From: Nostoc sp. FACHB-152
GTDB taxonomy: Bacteria > Cyanobacteriota > Cyanobacteriia > Cyanobacteriales > Nostocaceae
Length of the DNA stretch: 33,480 nt
Direction of reading: 5' to 3'
NCBI RefSeq assembly: GCF_014697475.1
Contig: NZ_JACJRV010000077.1
Location: 1-33,480, forward strand
Shown here: positions 2,858 through 32,878 of the stretch, in pieces
Layout of the letters: each line of letters opens with the position of its first letter
Numbering within the stretch: the stretch's first letter is position 1
The notes under the pieces: generated by a model
The model's input: the letters and a program-made list of their open reading frames with translations, nothing else
What the model was told of the DNA's origin: nothing
Database searches by the model: none
Translations under genes and position numbers: made by a program

Positions 2858-3196
2858 GTGAGAGAAATCGTAATGCAAGGAATACCTTTAGATTTGGTAT
2901 CCCGGATTGACTGGGGACAGGAATATGGTGAATTTTTATTTCAACAAAGAGAAGATAAAAAACTATCTAGGGAAGAAGTAGCACAAGCAATTACAAAGCT
3001 TGGAGAACCCTGCTCTCAACAGTTAATTCATAAAATAGAGAAATGGAAGGGTAAAGGAGATCGGTCTGTTTCTTTGTCTCTTATTTTGAAATATTGTCAA
3101 ATTTTAGGAATCGAACTGAGGGCGTTTTATCCTGTTGTATCACAAACCCTTAGTTACCCTTTGTTACAAAAAATTTCATCTGTAAGCGTTGAATAA
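2858..3196 (+). CDS. XRE-type helix-turn-helix regulator
   Basis: Protein of 112 residues from a GTG at 2858, or 107 from the ATG at 2873. AGGAG at about 2847-2851 favours the GTG. Residues about 28-85 look like a Cro/CI-type helix-turn-helix: LSREEVAQAITKLGE, then SQQLIHKIEKWKGKG as recognition helix, and a closing helix SLILKYCQILGIELRAFYP. This fold binds operator DNA as a dimer. It is the first gene of the long co-directional block ending with the replication protein, and it follows a repeat-rich intergenic region, so autoregulation or control of the block is a reasonable inference. No extra effector domain is visible. The XRE-like call is from pattern only. Confidence 0.6.
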   Translation: MREIVMQGIPLDLVSRIDWGQEYGEFLFQQREDKKLSREEVAQAITKLGEPCSQQLIHKIEKWKGKGDRSVSLSLILKYCQILGIELRAFYPVVSQTLSYPLLQKISSVSVE

Positions 3197-3301
3197 TTTC
3201 CATAAAATATGTAAAATGTGAGAGACAAAACAAAGGACAACCGACTTAGCCTGGAAAACTTCTGCGATTGCCCTTTGCCCTTATGTTTAAGGAATTCTAT
3301 T

Positions 3302-3898
3302 ATGCCTTATACTACCCCCGCCCAGCAACCGCTCGTCCGTAGCACCCTACCGCACCTCAAAAGAATTACTGCCACCGACGAACAAGCAATTGCTCAAGCC
3401 GAACTGAACAAGTACGTTGCGGAGCAAGCGCAAGCGGTAGCACCAACCACAGATCCGCTAACATCTCGTGACCGTCGCATCATTGGCGAGATCATCGAAG
3501 TAGATCCCGAATCGATCCGTACTCTCTGGATCGAAGGCGGAATCACTGTATGGGTGCAGCTAAAAGATGGTGGACGATTGCCATTCGAGCGGAACTGGTT
3601 CGCTGCAAGAGTACAAGAAGTTAAGGCAACCCTACCTGAAACCCCCAGAGAACGGAACGAACGCCTCAGCGAAGAATTAGAAACAGCTTGTCAGAAATAC
3701 GGGCTGACACATGGCGAGATTGACTGGCTTTCCTTCAGCACAACCTTATATGTGAACCGCCAGCGTTTGGGCTTCCTCGGCTGCAACCTTCAAGGTCAAT
3801 GGTATAGCCGAATAAGCCAGTTGGGGGGCAGTCGCACGGCTGTTGATATTGATGCTGCGATCGCCCAACTGGGAATTAGACAGGCTGTAGCGGCATAA
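3302..3898 (+). CDS. Conserved-type hypothetical protein, 198 aa
   Basis: I start it at the ATG at 3302, preceded by AAGGA at about 3289, rather than the GTG at 3218, which would add 28 residues of unlike composition. The protein is soluble, with no signal peptide or membrane segment. The N-terminal ~55 residues are Ala/Gln/Thr rich (NKYVAEQAQAVAPTTDP), followed by a beta-rich part (IIGEIIEVDPESIRTLWIEG, then VWVQLKDGGRLPFERNWF), an acidic helix (RERNERLSEELETACQKYGL), and a C-terminal alpha/beta end. I do not recognise a family. Base use is more GC-rich than the following small genes. It opens the row of unknown genes between the XRE regulator and the replication gene. Confidence 0.75.
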   Translation: MPYTTPAQQPLVRSTLPHLKRITATDEQAIAQAELNKYVAEQAQAVAPTTDPLTSRDRRIIGEIIEVDPESIRTLWIEGGITVWVQLKDGGRLPFERNWFAARVQEVKATLPETPRERNERLSEELETACQKYGLTHGEIDWLSFSTTLYVNRQRLGFLGCNLQGQWYSRISQLGGSRTAVDIDAAIAQLGIRQAVAA

Positions 3899-3906
3899 CA
3901 CCAATT

Positions 3907-3953
3907 CGCAATTCGCAATTCGCAACTCGCAGTTAGTTCAATTGCGAATTGCG
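3907..3953. repeat. Heptamer tandem repeat forming a 14-bp hairpin
   Basis: Heptamers of the type CGCAATT run from 3903, and the same motif returns inverted. CGCAATTCGCAATT at 3907-3920 is perfectly complementary to AATTGCGAATTGCG at 3940-3953, leaving a 19-nt loop. A GCGTTAGC-type dispersed repeat (3951-3985) and another AATTGCGAATTG (about 3990-4001) follow. Such short tandemly repeated sequences are typical of heterocystous cyanobacteria. The hairpin could end transcription of the gene just upstream, although no T-run follows. Confidence 0.8.
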
Positions 3954-4029
3954 TTAGCAAAGCGTTAGCGACGAAGGAGCGTAACTGGAAATTGCGAATT
4001 GTTATGGTTGGGGCGAATGCTGTGAACCA

Positions 4030-4296
4030 ATGCTTTTGCCACCTACAGACTCAAATGCAGAGGTAATCAAAATTGCTGATTACACCCTGATTTACTGTTC
4101 TGGTGCTTGTCCCAGGCTCTACCGAATTTACAAGGGTGAACAGATGCTGGGTTTGGTTTTTGAGCATTTAACGCATTGGTCAAACGAAATTGATAATCAG
4201 CAGTACGCCGAACCACTGAACGCAGTAGTGGCACTCGATGATTTTCTCCTAGCTGCAAGTCTGGACGACAAAACTGACGAAAACATTGCAGCGTGA
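4030..4296 (+). CDS. Small hypothetical protein, 88 aa
   Basis: Starts at ATG 4030 and has no strong ribosome site (GGGGCGAAT lies about 18 bases upstream). The product is acidic, with beta-strand-like stretches (EVIKIADYTLIYC, CPRLYRIYKGEQMLGLVF) and a helical C-terminus (LNAVVALDDFLLAASL). It has two cysteines in CSGAC and no membrane span. No family is recognised. It is one of a run of short plus-strand genes. A purine-rich repeat (GGGAAAAGGTTAAAGGGG-like at 4303-4330) with a pyrimidine-rich counterpart (4340-4375) fills the gap before the next gene. Confidence 0.6.
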   Translation: MLLPPTDSNAEVIKIADYTLIYCSGACPRLYRIYKGEQMLGLVFEHLTHWSNEIDNQQYAEPLNAVVALDDFLLAASLDDKTDENIAA

Positions 4297-4396
4297 CTCA
4301 GGGAAAAGGTTAAAGGGGAAAGGTTAAAGGACAGTTCTTATTCCCTTCCCCCTTGCCCTTTCCCCCTTCCCCAATCATTCATTCACCAATCCATCT

Positions 4397-4723
4397 ATGC
4401 AACCCACAATATCCATTCCCAAACACTGGGATTACCCCCGCTTTACCTTTGATCAACGCACACAGCAGGGAATCATCCTCGGACTCGAATACTACCCCGC
4501 CGATACTCAACTGGCTTACGAATATGGTCACGGCTGGCGATATATAGTAATGCCTCATAAATATTCTGATGAAGTTAAGCATTATTCTGACAAGGAACTT
4601 CAAACGCTTTCTGTTGCCCAGATACAGGCGCAAATACAAGTCGAGATTAAACAACATCAACAGCAAATCAAATCACTTCAACAGCAACTAGTGGCTATCA
4701 CAGGAGGTTCAAGCGATGGCTAA
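4397..4723 (+). CDS. Hypothetical protein with C-terminal coiled coil, 108 aa
   Basis: ATG at 4397. The first ~65 residues are aromatic-rich and likely beta-structured (HWDYPRFTFDQRT, IILGLEYYP, YEYGHGWRYIVMPHKY). The last ~45 form a Gln-rich heptad pattern (QIQAQIQVEIKQHQQQIKSL) typical of a coiled coil. Its last 8 bases overlap the start of the next gene, which points to translational coupling. Function unknown. A shadow frame exists on the opposite strand, but codon pattern and the coupled neighbour favour this one. Confidence 0.65.
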   Translation: MQPTISIPKHWDYPRFTFDQRTQQGIILGLEYYPADTQLAYEYGHGWRYIVMPHKYSDEVKHYSDKELQTLSVAQIQAQIQVEIKQHQQQIKSLQQQLVAITGGSSDG

Positions 4724-4913
4724 GGTTGTCGATTATTACGTTGAACGGACAGCCGCCAGATTACTACACTCACTCAAAGGTTCTGGTGGTACTATTCCTC
4801 TGCACCGAATTCAGTTTTCTAACACAATCATTCAGCATTTATTAGACAAGAAACAGGCACAAATCAAGAACACTGGACACGGCTTTTTGTTGGCAGTTGT
4901 TGAAAAATTTTAG
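4716..4913 (+). CDS. Small hypothetical protein, 65 aa
   Basis: ATG at 4716 inside the 3' end of the preceding gene, with a near-consensus ribosome site AGGAGG at about 4703-4708. The basic product contains a helix (ERTAARLLHSLKGSG), a turn and a second helix (NTIIQHLLDKKQAQIK), then a hydrophobic tail (GHGFLLAVVEKF). It could be a small DNA-binding or adaptor protein, but nothing proves this. The 8-base overlap with the upstream gene and short gap to the downstream one indicate an operon. Confidence 0.65.
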   Translation: MAKVVDYYVERTAARLLHSLKGSGGTIPLHRIQFSNTIIQHLLDKKQAQIKNTGHGFLLAVVEKF

Positions 4914-4934
4914 TTCCAGAAGGGAGAAACTCAA

Positions 4935-5132
4935 ATGGATTTACCTCCATTGCTACTATTAGTTGAATCGGCTCAATATTTGATATCTCAAATAGAAAAA
5001 CACCCCGATTACCAAGCACTTGATTATCAGCCAGATTTAACAATTGGGGATGCTCAAACGGCACTCTCGTATTTGAAATGCGAACTTGAAACCAATCAAC
5101 AGCCTGCAATTGTATCCCAGAGTGTTGATTAG
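4935..5132 (+). CDS. Small hypothetical protein, 65 aa
   Basis: ATG at 4935 preceded by AGGGAGA at about 4920, 21 bases after the previous stop. Acidic and mostly helical (LLLLVESAQYLISQIEKHPD and DAQTALSYLKCELE). The N-terminus is hydrophobic (PPLLLLV) but too short and too closely followed by charged residues for a convincing membrane anchor. Family unknown. It probably shares a transcript with the two genes upstream. Confidence 0.6.
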   Translation: MDLPPLLLLVESAQYLISQIEKHPDYQALDYQPDLTIGDAQTALSYLKCELETNQQPAIVSQSVD

Positions 5133-5135
5133 GAA

Positions 5136-5173
5136 ATAGCGTAGACGCAAAGCGGCTTGTCGTAGACATCGCT
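5136..5173. repeat. Nostoc-type small dispersed repeat
   Basis: The sequence around GCGTAGACGCAAAGCGGC and TTGTCGTAGACATCGC matches the common small dispersed repeat of Nostoc/Anabaena genomes (variants GCTTGCCGCAGGCATCGC). A related copy lies at about 18524-18543. A HIP1 octamer follows at 5196-5203. The repeat separates the small-gene cluster upstream from the gene at 5272. Confidence 0.6.
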
Positions 5174-5271
5174 TCAATGAGTGCTTATGTTGGGGCGATC
5201 GCTAGTGGCAGAAAATAGCGCATTGCTAGAGAAGCTTCATTATTACACATCAACGCTGAGGATTGAGAAAG

Positions 5272-5646
5272 ATGAAGTTTGAAATCAACCAAATTGTTGA
5301 AATTGTCGATGATAAGGCTGTTATTCTTTCTACGGAAATTAGAGTATTAACGCAATCTACTGATTTGTATTCTCTAGCCAAAGATTACATTGAAGAATAC
5401 GCGGATTACGAATTTGTTCAGCGTAATCAATACTCTGGTTACAGAATTAAGAGCAACAAACGCCGTCGATACATTATAGTTCTGATTCCGCAGCAAGACA
5501 GATTAATCATTTGCTCTCAACTACAGACTCAAACAATAAGTAAATTATTTCCTTACTTGTGGGAGACAGTTATCAACAGTATTGAAGAATTACGCTACTT
5601 TTTTGAGCTTTGGAACCATCAAGAACATGAAGAAGCAAAAGCCTGA
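5272..5646 (+). CDS. Hypothetical protein, 124 aa
   Basis: I choose the ATG at 5272; a TTG nine bases earlier is in frame but less likely. The protein is alpha/beta: strands (FEINQIVEIVDDKAVILSTE), a helix (DLYSLAKDYIEEYADYE), a basic hairpin (GYRIKSNKRRRYIIVLIPQQ), a strand (RLIICSQLQ) and a long C-terminal helix (LWETVINSIEELRYFFELW). The KSNKRRR patch might bind nucleic acid. No family recognised. It is separated by about 95 bases from the next gene. Confidence 0.65.
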   Translation: MKFEINQIVEIVDDKAVILSTEIRVLTQSTDLYSLAKDYIEEYADYEFVQRNQYSGYRIKSNKRRRYIIVLIPQQDRLIICSQLQTQTISKLFPYLWETVINSIEELRYFFELWNHQEHEEAKA

Positions 5647-5740
5647 ATAGGTTTCCAGACTTTTGCTAATTAAGGAATTTAAGGCAATTTTTCAAGGTGA
5701 ATTAAATTATTGCACACTCCATAAATGCAGAGGTTAAGAA

Positions 5741-6556
5741 ATGAGTAATGAAATCAAACTAGGTCTTTGTAATCCCCCAGAACCTATTTACCTATATGTC
5801 AAAAATGGGGAATCAAGCGGCGAATCTTTCTTGTGGTATCACTTCAACATTGATCAAGATAAGACCATCCCAGTACAACAACGTGGGTTAACTGGTTATT
5901 TATCAGAACTTCGAGTGACAGCCAAAGAATTCAAAGGCAAGGATAATATCAAGTTAGATATTGTTTTTGCATCTGATGAAGTCTACATTATCAGAACTGG
6001 CATAGAAACAAATTTTTCCAAGACATTTTTATTAGCTGCATCACTTGTACAAAACTTCACTAAACCCTTAACTATTGCTGTTACTAGTGGTGAAGAAAAT
6101 ACGGTGTTCTGTCGCTTATATGATGCGGCTACTAAAGTCAGAATCCGCCGTGAATGGAATCCTAATGCTGATTGGGCATCGCTCATTACTGAAATTCAAT
6201 CGCGGTTAACTGAGACATCTGCACCCCTTTCGTTAACACCAGAACAACCACCGCATCCTCAAGATATGCGGGTGAAACAGATTCGGACTTTGTTAAATTA
6301 TCCGCTTGATTTGGTACGGGAGTATTTGCAGTTTCAAGATGTGGATCGTCCGAGTTTATTACCTGCCAACAAGGTTGACTCTCTAGTAAAAACTATGTGT
6401 TTGGCATGGGCGGCGGATAAGTTTGAAAACCCGAATGATGCTGAATCTTCATATCCAAAGCAAGTGATTGATGCGATCGCAAGTGGGGCTGAAGAACTGG
6501 CAACAATACGCTCATGGATGCAGCAGTTAACTACAGCGAAAGCAGGGGCGGCTTAA
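5741..6556 (+). CDS. Hypothetical protein, possibly single-stranded-DNA-binding-like, 271 aa
   Basis: ATG at 5741. Two parts are visible. Residues 1-~150 are rich in beta strands with a pattern that resembles phage-type OB-fold single-strand DNA-binding proteins: a glycine-containing turn (QQRGLTGYLSELRV), KEFKGKDNIKLDIVFASDEV, then IIRTGIETNFSKTFLLAASL. After a Pro-rich linker (SLTPEQPPHPQD, about 163-175), a helical C-terminal part of about 100 residues follows (VKQIRTLLNYPLDLVREYL and EELATIRSWMQQL). The OB-like call is inference from strand pattern and from the position upstream of a replication gene. A structural accessory protein of another kind is equally possible. Complete, with no sign of damage. 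Confidence 0.7.
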   Translation: MSNEIKLGLCNPPEPIYLYVKNGESSGESFLWYHFNIDQDKTIPVQQRGLTGYLSELRVTAKEFKGKDNIKLDIVFASDEVYIIRTGIETNFSKTFLLAASLVQNFTKPLTIAVTSGEENTVFCRLYDAATKVRIRREWNPNADWASLITEIQSRLTETSAPLSLTPEQPPHPQDMRVKQIRTLLNYPLDLVREYLQFQDVDRPSLLPANKVDSLVKTMCLAWAADKFENPNDAESSYPKQVIDAIASGAEELATIRSWMQQLTTAKAGAA

Positions 6557-6663
6557 ACAGAGAGAAGAAGGTAGGGTTGGAGGTTCATTCTTAGATTCCA
6601 CACTCGACACCCTTACTACTTATTCTCACCCGATGAATTTGGATGAAAAGTTGGAGGTAGAAA

Positions 6664-7062
6664 ATGAGTGCTAAATGGTCTAAAGAAGAGATTGCAATCC
6701 TTGAACAAAAGGCTGATTTGTACACCAAAGAGCAAATCGCCAGGATGTTAAAAAGGCGAGGATATCATCGTTCAACTATGGCAATTAAGCTGAAATTAAA
6801 TCGTTTGGGCTACTCTACACGCCCCACACTTGATAACTATAGTTGCAAAGAAATTGCCAAAGTCCTGCGTTTGAGTTTCTCTACTATCTGTAGATGGGTG
6901 CGTCTTGGATGGCTCAAAGCTAGCAAGCGATCTGCAAGCTGTTACCAAGTTAGAACATGGCATCTCAAACAGTTTCTTGAAAATCCGCCACAGCCTATTA
7001 AAGAACGCATCGAATCACTTGACCCTGAAGCCATTAATTATCTTGTGGGGAACAAAGTATGA
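6664..7062 (+). CDS. Two-domain helix-turn-helix DNA-binding protein
   Basis: ATG at 6664 with GGAGGT nine bases upstream. Residues 1-50 look like a Myb/SANT-type or terminase-small-subunit-type helix-turn-helix (WSKEEIAILEQKAD, TKEQIARMLKRRGYH, TMAIKLKLNRLGY). Residues 57-132 form a second domain of the MerR/excisionase (HTH_17) kind: YSCKEIAKVLRLSFSTICRW with the wing-like VRLGWLKASKR, then LKQFLENPPQPIKERIESLD. The second domain is repeated in the next gene, and the two genes overlap by 4 bases (ATGA). Likely a sequence-specific DNA-binding protein of the element. Whether it is a regulator, excisionase or partner of replication cannot be told. Confidence 0.75.
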   Translation: MSAKWSKEEIAILEQKADLYTKEQIARMLKRRGYHRSTMAIKLKLNRLGYSTRPTLDNYSCKEIAKVLRLSFSTICRWVRLGWLKASKRSASCYQVRTWHLKQFLENPPQPIKERIESLDPEAINYLVGNKV

Positions 7063-7313
7063 CTAAAACTTTAACTAGCCCAGAAAATTATACCTGCCAT
7101 CAAATCGCCAGTATTCTCTCATTAAATTTATTAACCGTTCGCCATTGGATTCAAAGAGGCTGGCTCAAGGCAAATCAAAGTTGCCCCAAATACTATCAAG
7201 TCAAACCAGGCAATCTTAAACAGTTTCTAGAAAATCCACCTCATCAAATTAGAAAACGCATTGCTGCCATTGATACCCAAGCCATTAATTGTTTACTGGG
7301 GAAAAATGTATGA
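7059..7313 (+). CDS. Paralogous single-domain helix-turn-helix protein
   Basis: ATG at 7059 overlaps the stop of the upstream gene (ATGA). The 84 residues align along their whole length with the C-terminal 76 residues of that gene: ENYTCHQIASILSL against DNYSCKEIAKVLRL, RGWLKA against LGWLKA, NLKQFLENPP against HLKQFLENPP, and QAINCLLG against EAINYLVG. It is therefore a tandem duplicate that carries only the excisionase-like domain and lacks the Myb-like one. The pair is probably co-translated and might form heterodimers on DNA. Confidence 0.8.
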   Translation: MTKTLTSPENYTCHQIASILSLNLLTVRHWIQRGWLKANQSCPKYYQVKPGNLKQFLENPPHQIRKRIAAIDTQAINCLLGKNV

Positions 7314-7768
7314 CAGAACAAATCACAGATTTAGAAAGATGCTGGTTTCTCTCACCACCTTGGGGGCAAGCTATACCACCTGTTGAAGTCAACTTGTTTG
7401 AGAAAGTTTACATCAGAAGTTATCAGACATTCGGCTACTGCTGCGGGGTGCAGTGGTATCAAGAATCCTGGGATTATGCTGTGGATATCAAAAAAGACAT
7501 TATCTACACGACAAAACATCAGCTAATCGGCACTGGGCATATACAACCCAGCACTTTGACTAAACCTGCTTTCGTGTTGGGTGAGCGCGTCATGTTGCAA
7601 TTTTGCGCTCGCGGCACTAAGCAAAGGCTGATTCTGGGCATTGAACTAATCGAAAAATCCTGGTTCTATTTGGTCGAGTTGGCTTCACCTAGTTTTTCTC
7701 CACCATCGACTATGACCAATAGATTTTCACTGGTACGAGAAGAAGACTTAGTGCGGGTGAATGTCTAA
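7310..7768 (+). CDS. Likely DUF1392 protein, 152 aa
   Basis: ATG at 7310 overlaps the preceding stop (ATGA), which decides this start over an in-frame TTG at 7289. The protein is beta-rich with repeated aromatic motifs: CWFLSPPWGQAIPPVEVNLF near the start, FGYCCGVQWYQESWDYAVDI in the middle and WFYLVELASP near the end. This agrees with my memory of DUF1392, a family confined to Nostoc/Anabaena and relatives, but I could not check it. Function unknown. The overlap ties it to the two helix-turn-helix genes, giving a three-gene translationally coupled unit. Confidence 0.7.
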   Translation: MTEQITDLERCWFLSPPWGQAIPPVEVNLFEKVYIRSYQTFGYCCGVQWYQESWDYAVDIKKDIIYTTKHQLIGTGHIQPSTLTKPAFVLGERVMLQFCARGTKQRLILGIELIEKSWFYLVELASPSFSPPSTMTNRFSLVREEDLVRVNV

Positions 7769-7810
7769 GTCTACACACAACACTTTTTACTCATCACACC
7801 ACTAAAAACT

Positions 7811-8704
7811 ATGTCTCCTATTGAAATAGCCCAAATCATCGAACAGATTAAACAAGAAATAGAAGTTGACGCATCGGGTAAAGCTAAAGCCAGCATCAGA
7901 GCAACTGCAAGACTGGCAGGAGTTGATGAAAAAGCGATTCGCCATACGCTAGAGAACGCGGAACAAAAACCTTCCAAATTAGCCCTAATGCTTATACAGC
8001 ATGGTTTTCAATCTGCGGAACTAAAAGAGTGGAAAACAAATGGGATTCCCGACATAGCGATCGCAATCATCATAGAATACTACGCCTTTGAAGCTGGCAG
8101 GTATTGTAACCCACAAGCAAGATTGGTATGCCGTTCATTCAACACTATTGGTATCCGAGCCTGGATTCAAGAAAAGTTGGGCTGGACAAAGAAAGAGCAG
8201 CAACCCGAACAACCACCCACCCCTGCCCTGCCTCCAGTGGAACAACGTTTGCAGACTTTAGTGGAAGCGATGAAAACTTTAGCTGACCTCACCGGGGGCA
8301 AACTCAATCCATATATTGAACAGCATTTCAAAGACTTTGCCGCAAACCTTTTGTCTGAACATAACAGGCAAGCACTTTGTGGGACTTCTGAAAAATGGAT
8401 GGGCGTGGTGAACTTTGCAGAAATTGAGCTTGGCAAGAAAGTACCTCTGCACGGTTCGCACTATCGTGGGCATTTAGGTACTTGGGTTCGCACATTTTAC
8501 CCACACCTGGGAGATCGCCAAGAAAATCGTTTGGTCAACGGCACTCAACAGTCAGTCTACATCTACGCTTGTCATGACCCTGCGATCGCTTCGGGATTAA
8601 CTAAAGCAATTGAGGAGTTCTTTGCACATCCGAACCCAACAGCAGCACTAAGGCAGGCTGGGGCTTTCAGTAATAAGAAGGGGATGAGATTAGTCAAAAA
8701 GTAA
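7811..8704 (+). CDS. Antirepressor-like protein of cyanobacterial mobile DNA, 297 aa
   Basis: ATG at 7811 with no strong ribosome site. Residues about 20-125 resemble the conserved region of phage/plasmid antirepressor-type proteins common in cyanobacteria: SIRATARLAGVDEKAIRHTL (helix-turn-helix), GIPDIAIAIIIEYYAFEAG, then NTIGIRAWIQEKLGWTK. A Pro/Gln linker (about 130-145) leads to a second part with ELGKKVPLHGSHYRGHLGTW and TQQSVYIYACHDPAIASGL, which I do not recognise. The family link is from motif memory only. The last codons (VKK stop) form the first copy of a repeat that recurs twice downstream. Confidence 0.65.
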   Translation: MSPIEIAQIIEQIKQEIEVDASGKAKASIRATARLAGVDEKAIRHTLENAEQKPSKLALMLIQHGFQSAELKEWKTNGIPDIAIAIIIEYYAFEAGRYCNPQARLVCRSFNTIGIRAWIQEKLGWTKKEQQPEQPPTPALPPVEQRLQTLVEAMKTLADLTGGKLNPYIEQHFKDFAANLLSEHNRQALCGTSEKWMGVVNFAEIELGKKVPLHGSHYRGHLGTWVRTFYPHLGDRQENRLVNGTQQSVYIYACHDPAIASGLTKAIEEFFAHPNPTAALRQAGAFSNKKGMRLVKK

Positions 8705-9026
8705 AAAGCGATCGCACATTGATGGTACGTGCTTAAGCATTCATTCGTTAGTGTATCAGTTTTTCTTTTTACGGCTAAAAATCTTTTGAGATGACTGTAT
8801 GGCAACAGTCAAAAAGTAAAAAGCAACCGCACACCAAACAGCAGCGATTGCAAGAGGACATCTTGAATATTTAGTGATTCACCATTGCCACCCAAATTCC
8901 GCATTTTTCCAAGAACTAAAACAATCATCCAGATACACGATCACTACTCTTTCAAATTCAGGAGAACGATATGCCTAGCTTTGGGCAAATAATTAGCACT
9001 ACTCAAAAAGTAAAAAGCGACCGCAC
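8693..9026. repeat. Three copies of a 24-26-bp repeat after the antirepressor-like gene
   Basis: The core TCAAAAAGTAAAAAGCGACC or its HIP1 variant ending GCGATCGCAC occurs at 8693-8718, 8808-8833 and 9003-9026. The first copy includes the stop codon of the gene ending at 8704. After copies one and three a second shared block, TATCAGTTTTT, appears (about 8755 and 9083). GTAAAAAG at 8701-8708 is complementary to CTTTTTAC at 8765-8772. The region 8705-9158 contains no gene I can support and looks like repeated copies of a gene 3' end plus spacer. Confidence 0.75.
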
Positions 9027-9158
9027 TCCTATTTGAATGAGATCGCTGTCTGGTTGTAATTGTGCCGAATCTAATCTTAGGCTATCAGTTTTTGTTTTAA
9101 CTACTCAAGCACCGGATAACACTAACCCTTGACTCAAATCAAAGCAACCCAAATAAAT

Positions 9159-9755
9159 ATGCAACAACTCACATTATTTCCTGAATCCACACCAACCCTA
9201 CCCGTCACCTACTACCCAGAATTCTTGTCCATCCAAGAAGCAAACGAACTTTACCAGCATTGTTTACAACTGCAATGGCAACAGAATCACATCAGAATGC
9301 TGGGGAAGACAACAGATGTGCCTCGGTTGGAGTGCTTATACGGTGACAAGGGCTGCAATTACTACTATTCCAAAAGCGTACTGCTCAAACCCCTACCCTG
9401 GACTGATCAACTGGCCGAACTGCGAGACAGAATTATCGCATTCACAGGCTATAACTTCCGCATCGTTATCGGCAACCAATATCGTACAGGCTCAGATTCC
9501 ATCGCGTGGCATTCGGACAATGACTCATCAATGGGACTAGATCCGGCGATCGCGTCAATCAGTCTTGGTGCAACACGCAAATTCCAGATTAAACCGATAG
9601 GTGGCCGTCCCACTGACTTTTGGTTGGAACACGGCAGTCTGCTTTTGATGCACCCAGGATGTCAGTCTACTCATGTGCATCAGGTTCCGAAGACGACCAA
9701 AGTTGTTCGGACGAGGATCAATCTGACGTTCCGACCACACGTTGGAGGTAAATAA
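9159..9755 (+). CDS. AlkB-type Fe(II)/2-oxoglutarate dioxygenase
   Basis: 198 residues from the ATG at 9159; a TTG at 9129 would add ten residues of no family likeness. AlkB enzymes oxidatively remove alkyl groups from DNA or RNA bases. The metal site is present: H118 and D120 in IAWHSDND and a downstream His in HVHQVPKT (H174). The 2-oxoglutarate/substrate arginines are in RTRINLTFR (R186, R192). The typical ISLGATRKF strand and the N-terminal entry (LTLFPESTPTLPVTYYPEFL) also fit. Length is normal for a bacterial AlkB homologue. Here it is a stand-alone gene between unknown plasmid genes, so protection or modification of the element's nucleic acid is a plausible but unproven role. Confidence 0.9.
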   Translation: MQQLTLFPESTPTLPVTYYPEFLSIQEANELYQHCLQLQWQQNHIRMLGKTTDVPRLECLYGDKGCNYYYSKSVLLKPLPWTDQLAELRDRIIAFTGYNFRIVIGNQYRTGSDSIAWHSDNDSSMGLDPAIASISLGATRKFQIKPIGGRPTDFWLEHGSLLLMHPGCQSTHVHQVPKTTKVVRTRINLTFRPHVGGK

Positions 9756-9934
9756 TTATGATTCTCTCTCATCATGTATAATACCTTCGCTTAGTTCACT
9801 TGTACTACTAACAAGGAATCAGCAATCAGAATTTCATACAACCAAATAACACCAAAATACTGTGCCATCGCTTATCTAAACCTCTCGAATATAACAACTC
9901 AACTTGATTTATTTTTACCTTCAAGGAGTCCTAT

Positions 9935-10345
9935 ATGGTCAAAGTTAAACGTCGTCTATCAGAGCCGAACCCTATAGACCCCAATCTTACCTCTGCTCAA
10001 ACCGAGATGGAAAAATTGGAGGCGTGGATTAGAAATTTTGTCCTTTCATTTAGTCTAGGCAAGTTACGAACTGTTCTGTCAGGAGCTAAATTCTTACGGC
10101 AACCTGGTGGGGCATTGCAACTTAATCCATTCAAAGTCGTTTCTGGTTTGGCAATTATTATTACTTGTGATACTTGGAAGGATTACAAACTGCTTGTTGC
10201 AAAAAATAGACAACTCGCTTACAAAATCCGAAAGCTAGACCCAGAAGTTGACCTGTTAATGTTGCTGTCGCCTGACTTCTCCATCATGGAAGTCACAGTC
10301 ATAAAAACTATGGAAGAACTTGTAATCTTAGACTTTTTTAGGTAA
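9935..10345 (+). CDS. Hypothetical protein, 136 aa
   Basis: ATG at 9935 with AAGGAG nine bases upstream. The N-terminus is basic (VKVKRRLSEPNPIDPN), then a helix (TEMEKLEAWIRNFVLSFSLG), an alternating hydrophobic stretch (FKVVSGLAIIITCDTWKDYK), a basic helix (LLVAKNRQLAYKIRKLDPE) and a final strand pair (LLMLLSPDFSIMEVTVI). There is no confident membrane helix. It lies directly upstream of the replication gene, separated by a hairpin. Family unknown. Confidence 0.65.
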   Translation: MVKVKRRLSEPNPIDPNLTSAQTEMEKLEAWIRNFVLSFSLGKLRTVLSGAKFLRQPGGALQLNPFKVVSGLAIIITCDTWKDYKLLVAKNRQLAYKIRKLDPEVDLLMLLSPDFSIMEVTVIKTMEELVILDFFR

Positions 10346-10400
10346 TTGCTCAAGGGACAAAGATTGATCCTTAATACCTTTTCTTACAAAGTCAAAACAT

Positions 10401-10453
10401 TTGCTCCCGGACGCTCTTGTACACTGTTCTCTTCTGTTTTAAACCGGGAGCAA
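10401..10453. repeat. Perfect 10-bp inverted repeat between two genes, possible terminator or origin element
   Basis: TTGCTCCCGG at 10401-10410 pairs perfectly with CCGGGAGCAA at 10444-10453, leaving a 33-nt loop. TTCTGTTTTTTG follows immediately, so it could act as a terminator for the gene ending at 10345. Because it lies just upstream of the replication gene, a role in replication control is also possible. The intergenic region 10346-10538 is a natural candidate for origin sequences, but no iterons are visible in it. Confidence 0.6.
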
Positions 10454-10538
10454 TTCTGTTTTTTGTAATCAAACTAAATGACCATGTTGTTACACAACAA
10501 ACGATTCCTCTTCATTCACTTTCAACGGGTAAAAGGTT

Positions 10539-13500
10539 ATGGGAGAAGCTAAACGCCGCCGTCAATTAGACCCCAACTACGGCAAGGCTCAAATGTCCGA
10601 TATTTCTCAACCAACTACTGATAATCAGATCAACGAACAATCACAAAATCAGATTGCAAATATCATCAGTAATTACCAACAACTCACAAAACCTGATCTC
10701 AATTTACTGCCACTACCCAAGCCCAATAAAACTCATCACACAAACATTATCGATGCAGATCAATGCTCGAATCATCAACTATCACCAAGACATTGGCACG
10801 AATGGGTAGTCAATTCCGCAGTTGACCCCACAATCACCACTCTCAATGTCCGTTCTTTAGAAGGAGATGAAATTTACGAGTATCTAACGTATGCTCTACC
10901 CCCAACCGCTAGACGCAACGATGGGCGATTGCGAGATGGTGAATTGAGACGATACGCTCACATAAACAGCGCATGGTGGTCAAGTGGACTCGACCCTCAC
11001 AACAACTGGCTTCCGATGGAGTGGGGTCGTATGAAACCCGATACTCCTCGATTGGAATGGGATAAAAACACCAACGCGGAAATTCAAAAAGTAATTAAAT
11101 ACGAATCCCCAGCAAAAACTCCCAATCGCGTCACGTATTTTAGAGTTCCCCTGCATATCTGGCAAAAAATATCTCTTCGTTATGATGTTCCAATGCCCGA
11201 AAACATCGTCATCACACCAGAAGGGGAAGCCATCGGTTTTTGGGCTTGGGTAATGGCACATCCCCAAATTCCTCTATTTCTTACAGAAGGAGAAAAAAAG
11301 ACAGGTTGTATGCTGTCCTTGGGCTATGCGGCGATCGCACTGCCGGGGATTTGGAACGGTCGAGTGGGCAAAGAAGACTTCGAGCGACTGCATCCCGATT
11401 TAGTCCCAATGGCGCAAGACGGTAGAAAATTCGTCATCTTGTTTGACTACGAAACCAAGCCCAAAACCCAATGGCAAGTTTTTCAAGCCATACGTCGTAC
11501 TGGCAATACTATCATCGATTTGAATTGCGAATGCGTTGTTGCATTGTTACCAGGGCCAGAAAAAGGAATTGATGATTGGGTTGTCGCATTGAGCAGCAAA
11601 GCCGAAAAAGCCGTCGCCACCATGATTGCTGATGCCTTAACCCTAAGCGAATATTGCCAACGGTTTTTCTACAAGCAGCCCAGAGGTTTGAAGAAGTACA
11701 AACCCGATATTACTGTCAATACCCGCTACTTATCCCAAGCCATCCATACATTACCAAAATCAGGGGTAGTATGTTTGGCTTCTGATATGGGAACAGGGAA
11801 GACCGAACTCTTGGTCACTCTCAGGAAAGAAAACCCCGATCTCAGTTTTTTGAACAACGGGCATCGGGTAAGTCTGTTAAAAAACCTCAGCGATCGCCTA
11901 AAGACGGCAATGTATTCTGCTTTAGCATCTGGGGATTGGGCAAAGGCCAAAGCTCTCAGTATCACTGTAGACTCTTTGTACAAGATGGCGAATAATTTGC
12001 AAGCTTATGACGTTCTATTTATAGATGAAGCTTGTCAATATCTGGCTCACTTGCTCAAATCCAAAACCTGCAAAGAACACCGGGGAGCTATCTTAGAAGT
12101 ATTAGAATTCTTAGTCTACAATGCCAAATTGGTTGTTTTAGCAGATGCCCACTTAGATGATTTGACCATCGACTTTTTCATGCGGATGCGACCCCAAGGA
12201 GAACAACCATACATTATCAAAAACGAGTATCGCTCTGGTGGTCGTCAAGTGTACTGGTATGAAAGCCCCAACAGTAGTGCAATTGTTGCCGCATTCCACG
12301 CACAACTTTTGTTGGGCAAGAAAGTGATGCTGGTCAGCGATTCTAAACGTTTCATCAAAAAGTTGGAAAGAGCATTGAATGGGCTTGAGGCATTAAAAGG
12401 TGATGATACACCAGAGTCAGACGAAGATAAACAGTTGCGAATTTGGACAATTCATTCGGAAAATAGTGGCAGTGACGAGAATGTTTACTTCATTCGGGAG
12501 ATTAATACCGCCATCAAAGATATCGATGCTTTATTAGCTACCCCCAGTCTTGGTACGGGTGTTGATATTTCTGCTTATCATTTTGATGCTGTGTTTGGTG
12601 TATTTCATGCTGTTTCGCAATCAGCCACCGAATGCGCTCAACAGTTGTGGCGATATCGTCCTAACGTACCGATGCACGTTTGGGTTGCACCTCATCCTCC
12701 CTTTGGTTATGCCGAAACTAAAGCCCGTCATATTAAGGAGAAAATTCTCCAGAAGAATGAAATGACGGCTTTCTTAATCCGCATCGACAAAGAAACGGGC
12801 GCGCGTGGTGCAGAGAAAGATTGGGCATTGGATACTTCTTGTCAGATTGAAGCACAGCGAAACTGGTCTATCAACAATTTACGTGCCGACTTGCGATCGC
12901 TCCTGGTGGAAATGGGCAATACGATTGTGCCAGCCGGTGATACTCCTGATGAATGGGCGGCTCGTTGGATGAAAGCTGCGGGGAATGCTATTGATCAGGA
13001 GCATTATCAAAAAGTAGCCAATGCCAAGGATATTGATAGAAAAACGTACACATCTAGACAACACCAAGATTATCTCAAGCCAGAAGAGGCATTAGAATGC
13101 GAGAAGTTCCGCATTCAGGATACTTACGGGATGACTGTCACTCCTGAATTAGTCGAGAAAGATGATGGTGGGCGGTTGATTAAAAAGTTAACTGCACTCG
13201 AAGGAATTTTAGCTTCCCCAAGGGAGGTTATTACCGACGAACACGGGCGAGAAGTCCTTACGCCACCTGATGTGGTTGCACAACGAGATAAATCCGAGCG
13301 AGATCGCCTACCCATTTGTACCGACTGGGGCAATCACTCCACATCCTGGTTAATACGTCATCGTTTAGGACTACAGGCGATATTGATGGACTTGATGGCC
13401 GGGTTGGAGATTATCGGGAACGAACCTACTCTGGCAGCAATGGCAGATTTCTCCAAGCGCAATGTGCCACATATTAAGGGTATCCTCAATTTGACCATCC

Positions 13501-14033
13501 CACTTGATGAATCTCCCATATGGATTTTGAGCCAGTATCTTTCGCAACTTGGTTTGTCTACCATATCAAGACGACCTTATGAGAATGGCGTGCGGATTCG
13601 GTATTATCGACTCAACCAAGAAGATGTGGCTTTTGCGAAGCAGGTTTTAGAGTATCGGCAACGGCAGCGTGAGGAGAAAGAGCGAAGACGGCAGGAAGAA
13701 CAAGCACTTCAGGCAGCTTATGCAGCTAGAATGCAGACTATGTATGGCATCAATGCTCCGTCCAACCCCCCCGTTAATAAAAATGGAAGTAATAATTGGG
13801 GGGGTGTGGACGGACAAGAAAACCCCATATATTTATGGTGGAAGCAGGTTAAAACTTATACTGCAAGGTTCATGGAACGGTTAGGAATTGGGGTTGATGC
13901 AGTCAAAGAGTTTTTAAGTTCCCTAACTCCTGATGAGCGATGGGGTGTGATGGTGCAGATGGAAGAAAATGAACCCCAAATGTTTGGCCAATTGGTGGCA
14001 CAGGCTCCCGATTGGATGCTGTGGATGGGGTGA
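10539..14033 (+). CDS. Plasmid replication protein, CyRepA1-like
   Basis: 1164 residues, ATG preceded by AAAGG. CyRepA1 proteins replicate small and large cyanobacterial plasmids and combine a primase-like N-terminal half with a helicase-like half. Visible parts: basic start ([11 protein letters not shown]); a DUF3854/Toprim-like region with LTEGEKKTG (E250, E252) and a following FVILFDYE acidic motif; Walker A DMGTGKTE at 416-423; Walker B LFIDEACQ with D496-E497; further helicase-type motifs ([10 protein letters not shown] and [13 protein letters not shown]). A Gln/Glu/Arg-rich helix ([20 protein letters not shown]) precedes a variable linker and a C-terminal domain ending [12 protein letters not shown]. 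It appears intact. This gene is the main reason to read the window as plasmid-derived. The exact family label was not verified by search. Confidence 0.88.
13757..13814. repeat. Inverted repeat inside the replication gene linker
   Basis: TCCGTCCAACCCCCC at 13757-13771 is nearly complementary to GGGGGGTGTGGACGGA at 13799-13814. The stem falls in the low-complexity linker of the replication protein ([20 protein letters not shown]), where insertion of a small palindromic repeat would be tolerated in frame. Confidence 0.6.
13995..14015 (+). repeat. Left copy of a 21-bp direct repeat (replication gene tail)
   Basis: Twenty-one bases from GTGGCACAGG to CCGATTGG inside the last codons of the replication gene recur exactly at 17445-17465. 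The homology continues imperfectly through the stop codon. The two copies bracket the EamA/MocR cassette. Confidence 0.9.
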
Positions 14034-32205: not shown

Positions 32206-32285
32206 AATCATCTCGTATACCCCAAGCTTTTTAGGAGTTTGGGTCATGGTCAAGCAGCTCCTCCAAGTACCGAAAGTTGGTAAAA
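32178..32285. repeat. Three copies of a TTACCAACTT motif around the integrase start
   Basis: TTACCAACTT (32178-32187) and AAGTTGGTAA (32196-32205) form a perfect 10-bp hairpin with an 8-nt loop. AAGTTGGTAAAA at 32196-32207 recurs exactly at 32274-32285, inside the first codons of the recombinase gene. Inverted and direct copies beside a tyrosine recombinase gene resemble core- or arm-type binding sites, and may also be an operator for its expression. Confidence 0.6.
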
Positions 32286-32878
32286 CTCAAAAAGGAGAGC
32301 GTCAGTCGCCTAACTCTCACAAATACTCAGAGGTTAGGACTAAGGAACATTTGTTACCAGAAGAAGTTGAGTTGATGCGGTCAGCTATCAAAAAATTTAA
32401 GGGTCGCCATGCTCATCGAGACTCAACCCTAATTTTGTTAATCTATCGTCACGGATTGCGAGTGGCAGAGGTGGCATCTCTGCGCTGGGAACAAATAGAT
32501 TGGAATGGTGGCACAATTTACGTGAAGCGGGTTAAAAAAGGTACTCCATCTACTCATCCTCTTTACTCTGAGGAAATTCGTTCTCTCCGCAAGCTTCAAA
32601 GAGATTATCCTGCTAGTCCCTACGTTTTCCAGTCCTCTCAACATGGCCCGTTGGCACATGATACGATCGCCGGCATTGTTGAACGGGCTGGTGAGTTAGC
32701 TGGTCTACCTTTCAGAGTCCATGCTCATATGCTAAGGCATAGTACGGGCTATTATTTGGCTAATCGAGGTATTGACACTCGGACAATTCAGAGTTACCTG
32801 GGACATAAAAATATACAGCACACAGTTCGTTACACCGAACTTGCATCTACTAAATTTCAAGGTCTTTGGAATGATTAA
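32246..32878 (+). CDS. Small tyrosine recombinase/integrase
   Basis: 210 residues from ATG 32246 (upstream TTAGGAG). It has the catalytic domain of phage-type integrases and little else, like FimB/FimE-size recombinases: R72 in YRHGLRVAEVASLRW, a hairpin Lys in VKRVKKGT (K97 or K98), H161-x-x-R164 in HAHMLRHSTGYY, H187 in YLGHKNIQHT and the nucleophile Y196 in VRYTEL. All key residues are present, so it could be active. Such enzymes integrate, excise or invert DNA. The motif repeats at its 5' end may be its sites. It follows an ISKra4 scrap and is the only intact recombinase gene seen. Confidence 0.92.
   Translation: MVKQLLQVPKVGKTQKGERQSPNSHKYSEVRTKEHLLPEEVELMRSAIKKFKGRHAHRDSTLILLIYRHGLRVAEVASLRWEQIDWNGGTIYVKRVKKGTPSTHPLYSEEIRSLRKLQRDYPASPYVFQSSQHGPLAHDTIAGIVERAGELAGLPFRVHAHMLRHSTGYYLANRGIDTRTIQSYLGHKNIQHTVRYTELASTKFQGLWND

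Follow-up and report, generated by a model that had tools for sequence, protein, structure and literature searches.

A conserved gene row ahead of CyRepA1 in Nostocaceae: a probable phage-like replication and single-strand-handling module with interchangeable initiators

In Nostoc sp. FACHB-152, the gene for the replication protein CyRepA1 stands at the end of a long row of genes at positions 2858 to 14033 of contig NZ_JACJRV010000077.1, whose 33,480 nucleotides form the window. According to the listing of open reading frames (ORFs), the row comprises 15 ORFs on the plus strand, numbered g01 to g15 here, of which the first encodes an XRE-type regulator and the last CyRepA1; an earlier sequence-only reading had counted about fourteen co-directional genes. 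We found that the gene content and order of this block are conserved and that most of its genes are under purifying selection. Taken together, our comparisons suggest that the block is probably a phage-like module for replication and for the handling of single-stranded DNA (ssDNA), carried by a Nostocaceae plasmid and served by interchangeable initiators. The window is the whole of contig C166 in a draft genome of 8.6 Mb in 190 contigs, and this contig is presumably a plasmid.

A second copy of the row is present in the same genome. Contig C49 has g03 to g15 in identical order and 71-95% identical to those of the window; it lacks g07 and has a single helix-turn-helix (HTH) gene. Comparing the two copies, we obtained ratios of nonsynonymous to synonymous substitution rates (dN/dS) of 0.04-0.27 in 9 of 10 genes; for g03, dS between the copies was 0.02 and the ratio is unusable. 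The near-identical synonymous sites of g03 (window 4090-4293 against 9510-9713 on the minus strand of locus L009; proportion of synonymous differences, pS, 0.02, with pS of 0.28-0.60 in the other compared genes) could reflect either recombination or an assembly-edge effect. Gene order from g04 through CyRepA1 is also the same on plasmid NZ_CP151100 of Nostoc sp. UHCC 0302, except that another KilA-N gene fills the g12 slot and that two minus-strand genes, of which the region has two copies, separate AlkB from g14.

To count each gene across strains, we scanned public genome contigs, which gave 199 pattern hits, of which 158 were confirmed and the best 80 kept (27 strains by their titles). Per-gene profiles were applied to these best 80 of 158 loci, a set that favours close relatives of g08, and only loci with enough DNA were counted. 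By this measure the core of the module consists of g02 (3218..3898; 62 of 64 loci), g04 (4397..4723; 52 of 64), g05 (4716..4913; 53 of 64), g06 (4935..5132; 51 of 64), an HTH gene (54 of 56), the DUF1392 gene g11 (7310..7768; 47 of 51), a KilA-N-type slot filled by g12 in the window (7811..8704; 37 of 44), the AlkB dioxygenase gene g13 (9129..9755; 35 of 38) and the CyRepA1 gene g15 (10539..14033; 30 of 31). Three genes are accessory: g03 (4030..4296; 1 of 64), g07 (5263..5646; 5 of 64) and g14 (9935..10345; 1 of 33). The repeated translational overlaps seen earlier number three in the window (4397-4723 with 4716, 8 nucleotides; 6664-7062 with 7059, 4 nucleotides; 7059-7313 with the ATG at 7310, 4 nucleotides), and two of them recur in relatives, where 58 of 62 g04-g05 pairs and 46 of 59 HTH-DUF1392 pairs overlap.

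Another check on the association, independent of g08, was anchored on AlkB in 24 genomes assembled in few contigs. It used 119 CyRepA1 genes, each over the cut-off alone, 50 of 51 AlkB genes (a 39-codon fragment was left out), 70 of 77 DUF1392 genes, and 52 g08 genes with E-values below about 1e-70; the figures cover the listed matches. For 21 of the 50 AlkB genes, a CyRepA1 gene lies on the same strand no more than 4.5 kb downstream, where about 0.07 would be expected under uniform placement. The earlier suggestion that the small genes accompany CyRepA1 could have foundered on a lack of co-occurrence; instead, conserved order was found in the 80 loci, and closeness of AlkB to CyRepA1 in the AlkB-anchored check.

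The terminal gene itself is a clear member of its family, as had been proposed. The 1164-residue product of g15 matches NF042913 at 343 bits (cut-off 200) over residues 407-1009, has the N-terminal domain DUF3854 (PF12965, 5e-39), and matches phrog_4913, annotated 'replication', at 1.7e-69. A replication protein (Rep) ORF of at least 400 codons was found on the module strand in 43 of 84 mapped loci, and these proteins fall into two types, 21 of type A (72-85% identical to the window Rep) and 22 of type B (26-35%, with one at 49%). Median Rep identity is 85.2% within type A, 86.2% within type B, and 30.7% between the types. For AlkB, by contrast, the corresponding values are 84.7 (A-A), 86.4 (A-B) and 87.7 (B-B), and for g08 they are 77.2, 77.2 and 77.8. 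AlkB and g08 are thus as similar across Rep types as within them, which argues that the initiator can be exchanged; judged by these identities, Rep is not a fixed partner of the module but an exchangeable part of it.

In some relatives, the initiator is of another kind altogether. On plasmid A of Trichormus variabilis ATCC 29413 (NC_007410), a row of g02, a g04-like gene, g08, DUF1392, a g12-like gene, a methyltransferase gene and AlkB ends in a 502-residue O-like initiator (phrog_9773, 2.5e-27) and a DnaB helicase. The same O-like and DnaB pair follows AlkB in L191, L192, L194 and L201, and DnaB alone does so in L193; most of these five regions were picked because no CyRepA1 follows AlkB, and L191-L193 are without g08. 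Plasmid A carries two modules (L189-L190), one with the O-like and DnaB end and the other broken; the broken copy, at 90-94 kb, has no Rep, and its g08 is in two pieces beside TnpB genes.

Each of the 24 Nostocaceae genomes also had one CyRepA1-like match with an open frame of 1028-1069 codons, in most cases located megabases into the main contig (in genome G048 it is on contig C6). The six such frames that we fetched (L205-L210) have alike starts and lie among housekeeping-looking genes. Because chromosome replication in Nostoc 7120 is reported to be DnaA-independent (PMC7198777), this chromosomal relative is worth testing as an initiator.

Handling of single strands is the probable task of g08 (5741..6556, 271 amino acids); the sequence-only reading had listed a possible ssDNA-binding protein in the block. 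The 89-residue C-terminal tail of g08 (residues 173-261) is shared with Erf proteins: it has 54% identity with the end of an ERF-domain protein encoded on a Nostoc plasmid, a protein that itself matches PF04404 at 1.9e-24 and phrog_155 at 1.3e-45. In Nostoc C057, on p057_J and p057_H, this Erf protein takes the place of g08 after g02- and g03-like genes. Members of the g08 family match neither ERF, whose domain would be expected in the N-terminal half, nor any ssDNA-binding family by sequence, and a g08 profile run against PDB sequences had a best E-value of 0.67. The N-domain is shared with phages: joined to another tail, it occurs on 4 contigs of a viral collection (from a 2-locus and a 4-locus set with two contigs in common), and in three of the four the neighbors look, by eye, like terminase, tape-measure or tail genes. 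The best structural model of the N-domain had a mean predicted local distance difference test score (pLDDT) of 85.7 and a predicted template modeling score (pTM) of 0.80. At an E-value of 0.001 it had four fold matches, all to uncharacterized phage proteins (1.3e-7 to 8.8e-4), and phage ssDNA-binding proteins came next in the list (0.03-0.21). A model of full-length g08 was poor (pLDDT 65), had no PDB match at an E-value of 0.001, and was set aside. The earlier suggestion finds OB-like hints in the fold and no family in the sequence; from these hints, the Erf tail and the exchange with Erf, g08 is probably an ssDNA-binding or annealing protein.

Matches to g08 occur in 118 of 192 Nostocaceae genomes, with up to 13 per genome. 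When 40 g08 regions were chosen for spread and for room around the gene, 28 carried the module. A chromosomal relative of about 233-258 amino acids with a different tail (E-values of about 1e-27 to 1e-29) was seen in L172-L175 and L179, and similar matches exist in many of the 24 genomes. Within the order, the g05 profile matched 4 of 243 genomes, its own included, all in the window's family. The complete module was not seen in the viral collection, where the only g05-like match covered 23 residues.

The XRE-type regulator g01 (2858..3196) was recognizable by HTH_31 and HTH_3 matches that fall below the Pfam cut-offs (HTH_31, 4.8e-5). A plus-strand g01 was found in 10 of 64 loci; elsewhere different HTH genes are present, many of them in minus-strand orientation, and in 54 of the 84 mapped loci the module is preceded by a group of minus-strand genes. 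The duplicated HTH proteins reported earlier are tandem paralogues, g09 (6664..7062; HTH_23, 2e-6) and g10 (7059..7313), which share a 121-nucleotide direct repeat at 74% and correspond to a single copy in L009 and L014. AlkB was likewise borne out, with a 2OG-Fe(II) oxygenase domain (PF13532) at 106 bits against a cut-off of 31.2 and an E-value of 3.6e-30. The DUF1392 protein matches PF07154 at 4.1e-69. For g02, diverse in spite of its core status, no family match was found and its function is unassigned; g05 and g06 each encode 65 amino acids, and dN/dS is 0.16 for g04, 0.04 for g05 and 0.07 for g06. Among the accessory genes, g03 is present too in L009, L051 and L084-L086, g07 has a weak match to DUF3788 (5.4e-4, below cut-off), and g14 (136 amino acids) had 5 matches in all loci scanned (the window, L009, L014, L094 and L104).

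The antirepressor-like protein of the sequence-only reading, g12, is recognizable through PHROG matches only, and its domains appear to have been exchanged. Its N-terminal half is BstA-like (phrog_6287, 1.7e-6, residues 23-130) and its C-terminal half resembles phrog_66 (2.7e-13). The BstA match stops at profile position 151 of 304, short of the C-terminal domain that would mark a true BstA, and g12 itself has no Pfam KilA-N match. Matches to g12, over either its full length or one of its halves, turned up in 27 plasmid records. The slot contains true KilA-N domains in L014 and L171, and a g12-type gene is absent from 7 of the 44 loci with enough DNA. In L121, a phage-type cytosine methyltransferase gene (11194-12204; phrog_363, 6.2e-63) lies between HTH and DUF1392, and its cluster (c4) is represented in 13 of the 84 mapped loci; in one of these it is distant and on the opposite strand. 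The likeness to a phage-plasmid early module, which had also been proposed, holds in so far as relatives carry counterparts of phage early regions in or beside the same slots, namely Erf, an O-like initiator, DnaB, phage-type DNA methyltransferases and KilA-N/Ant regulators. For a phage-plasmid in the strict sense we found no support: no virion or packaging genes were found among the module proteins scanned, the window and the plasmid as wholes not having been scanned for them, and 18 of 40 plasmid records with a g08 match are of conjugative type.

The leader of the CyRepA1 gene contains a terminator-like hairpin at 10401..10453 on the plus strand (-138 to -86 relative to Rep), with a 10-bp stem and a 33-nucleotide loop, followed by a T-rich stretch. 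This is the hairpin of type-A leaders. In L009 the stem is identical to that of the window, L052 and L152 have other stem sequences in the equal place, and L014 has a similar stem, found by eye, that includes a G-T pair. We scanned 17 leaders under a rule requiring a T tail. Four stems (window, L009, L123 and L152) were matched by none of 200 shuffles, seven stems of 7 bp were equalled by 3-5 of the 200, and six leaders scored zero (L099, L106, L164, L014 and both L052 entries). In a hand-registered count over six sequences, representing three stem sequences, both partners vary yet stay paired in 6 of the 8 base pairs, with 1 mispair in 48 cells. Because the arms were picked for pairing, support for the hairpin comes solely from its constant position and its altered sequence. 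In 9 of the 15 type-B leaders examined (L087, L088, L103, L105, L108, L109, L119, L140 and L150), the top stem is a dyad of the GCGGCAT/ATGCCGC type that shows paired changes, and this dyad could be an operator, part of an origin or an RNA hairpin. The leader hairpin is reminiscent of the RNA control reported ahead of CyRepA1 on pSYSA (PMC9978351), although the likeness is no proof.

In the window, three 34-nucleotide direct copies lie at 8687-9029, around the gap between g12 and g13, together with small repeat families. No family reached the gathering score in an Rfam scan of the window, and scans for promoters and terminators gave no excess over shuffles (18 against 23.7 expected, and 8 against 10.4 expected). 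DDE_3 transposase genes or pieces stand directly left of the module at 352-1074 and 1916-2272, where relatives often carry minus-strand genes, and a tyrosine recombinase gene (PF00589, 9.5e-39) lies at 32246-32878, close to the right end of the contig.

How such a module would work can be outlined from its parts. Erf is an ssDNA-annealing protein, AlkB repairs methyl damage and prefers ssDNA, and O-like proteins recruit DnaB. We propose that the XRE, HTH and KilA-N regulators would switch on the gene run, for example after entry or at low copy number, and that the g08 protein, or Erf in its place, would bind or anneal single strands, while AlkB would repair methyl damage in these single-stranded intermediates. 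Replication would then be driven by CyRepA1, the primase-helicase encoded at the end of the row, or by DnaB together with an O-like initiator, with the leader hairpin perhaps limiting CyRepA1 expression. Swapping the initiator beneath a constant module might allow several module plasmids to share a cell. More tentatively still, these plasmids might form a replicon class, widespread in the Nostocaceae, in which a stable, phage-derived recombination and ssDNA-repair core combines AlkB as a dedicated replication partner, an OB-like protein with an Erf tail, and an initiator exchangeable for compatibility with sister modules.

Several observations weigh against so unified a module. Intergenic gaps of about 95-425 nucleotides interrupt the block, so that its organization as a single transcript or operon is putative. 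The locus counts are not independent, because g08 served as the probe and several strains are each represented by many loci, and 12 of the 40 g08 regions have other or only partly similar surroundings. In the AlkB-anchored genomes, 29 of 50 AlkB genes are not next to CyRepA1, and 94 of 119 CyRepA1 genes are without the module (some adjoin ParM genes, for example), with a module gene upstream of the other 25; among the 52 listed g08 genes, CyRepA1 follows no more than 9 kb downstream for 19 and is missing from that distance for the other 33. In the 8 kb covered at the Erf loci, no CyRepA1 was found. As for the fold of g08, the five N-domain models range in mean pLDDT from 85.7 down to 43.3, and the PDB fold list, headed by OB proteins with Stn1 first (E-value 0.019, template modeling scores below 0.3), contains no significant match.

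We considered whether the row serves something other than replication. An establishment or 'leading-region' module would be expressed at conjugative entry, guard the incoming ssDNA (through ssDNA binding, AlkB and methyltransferases) and set regulation, with Rep merely the next gene. The ssDNA-type parts suit this account, as do the cytosine methyltransferase-type cluster in 13 of the 84 mapped loci and the 18 of 40 g08 plasmid records typed as conjugative. However, 16 of the 40 are typed as non-mobilizable, and the module is tied to a replication gene that other replication genes replace in place, so that we regard this account as unlikely, if deserving of attention. A role in exclusion or defence has a smaller chance of being correct. 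BstA is reported to block phage DNA replication (PMC8585504); a BstA/KilA-N-like protein might similarly block the replication of incoming phages or plasmids while the other genes tune its action or spare the host plasmid. The N-terminal half of g12 matches BstA (1.7e-6), as does the KilA-N protein of L014 (1.6e-8), but the match is limited to the KilA-N-like half, the C-terminal half is phrog_66-like, other loci have plain KilA-N/Ant-type regulators, and 7 of 44 lack a g12-type gene.

Slightly more improbable again is that the row is the decaying residue of a phage or phage-plasmid, carried along with a replication gene. Its phage-like parts and its broken copies, such as that at 90-94 kb on T. 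variabilis plasmid A, would be expected of such a residue; dN/dS of 0.04-0.27 in 9 of 10 genes and an order kept across 27 strains would not. That unrelated genes are adjacent by coincidence we consider hardly credible. Despite the accessory genes g03, g07 and g14, synteny and purifying selection reject a chance row, and the linkage of AlkB to Rep is far above uniform chance. A replication and ssDNA-handling module with interchangeable initiators is the explanation that we prefer.

CyRepA1 replicons have been studied so far as a Rep gene with a short control region, while here Rep is the last and replaceable gene of a module that is present in multiple copies in some genomes. Large Nostoc plasmids may, for that reason, rely on genes now annotated as hypothetical for their copy control, compatibility and repair. 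The module also provides leads for DUF1392, on which our literature search found no paper, for the g08 family with its 118 of 192 genomes, and for an AlkB linked to a replication gene; related modules exist in a cultured strain, T. variabilis ATCC 29413. CyRepA1 was known already; a description of the module was not found in the literature that we searched (CyRepA1, cyanobacterial plasmid replication with KilA-N or AlkB, and phage-plasmids in Nostoc).

Each of the known systems nearest to the module shares some of its parts. With BstA (PMC8585504), g12 appears to share a KilA-N-like N-terminal half and a two-part build, but its C-terminal half is not BstA-like. Phage early replication regions with O-like proteins, DnaB and Erf resemble the module in that relatives hold such proteins in equal slots. 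They differ in that CyRepA1 here stands in place of O and DnaB, and g08 in place of Erf, with no virion genes among the window's module proteins scanned. In the lytic replicon of phage P1, kilA-repL, a KilA-N-type gene likewise precedes the rep gene, whereas the window has no RepL and has many genes between and before the two. Closest in its Rep is pSYSA of Synechocystis, for which it is reported that CyRepA1 (Slr7037), with predicted primase and helicase domains, is required for plasmid maintenance and that a region of RNA-level control lies directly upstream (PMC9978351). On pSYSA, that upstream position is held by ssr7036, with its 64-residue product, and asRNA1, while in the window it is held by a module of 8-11 kb and a terminator-like hairpin.

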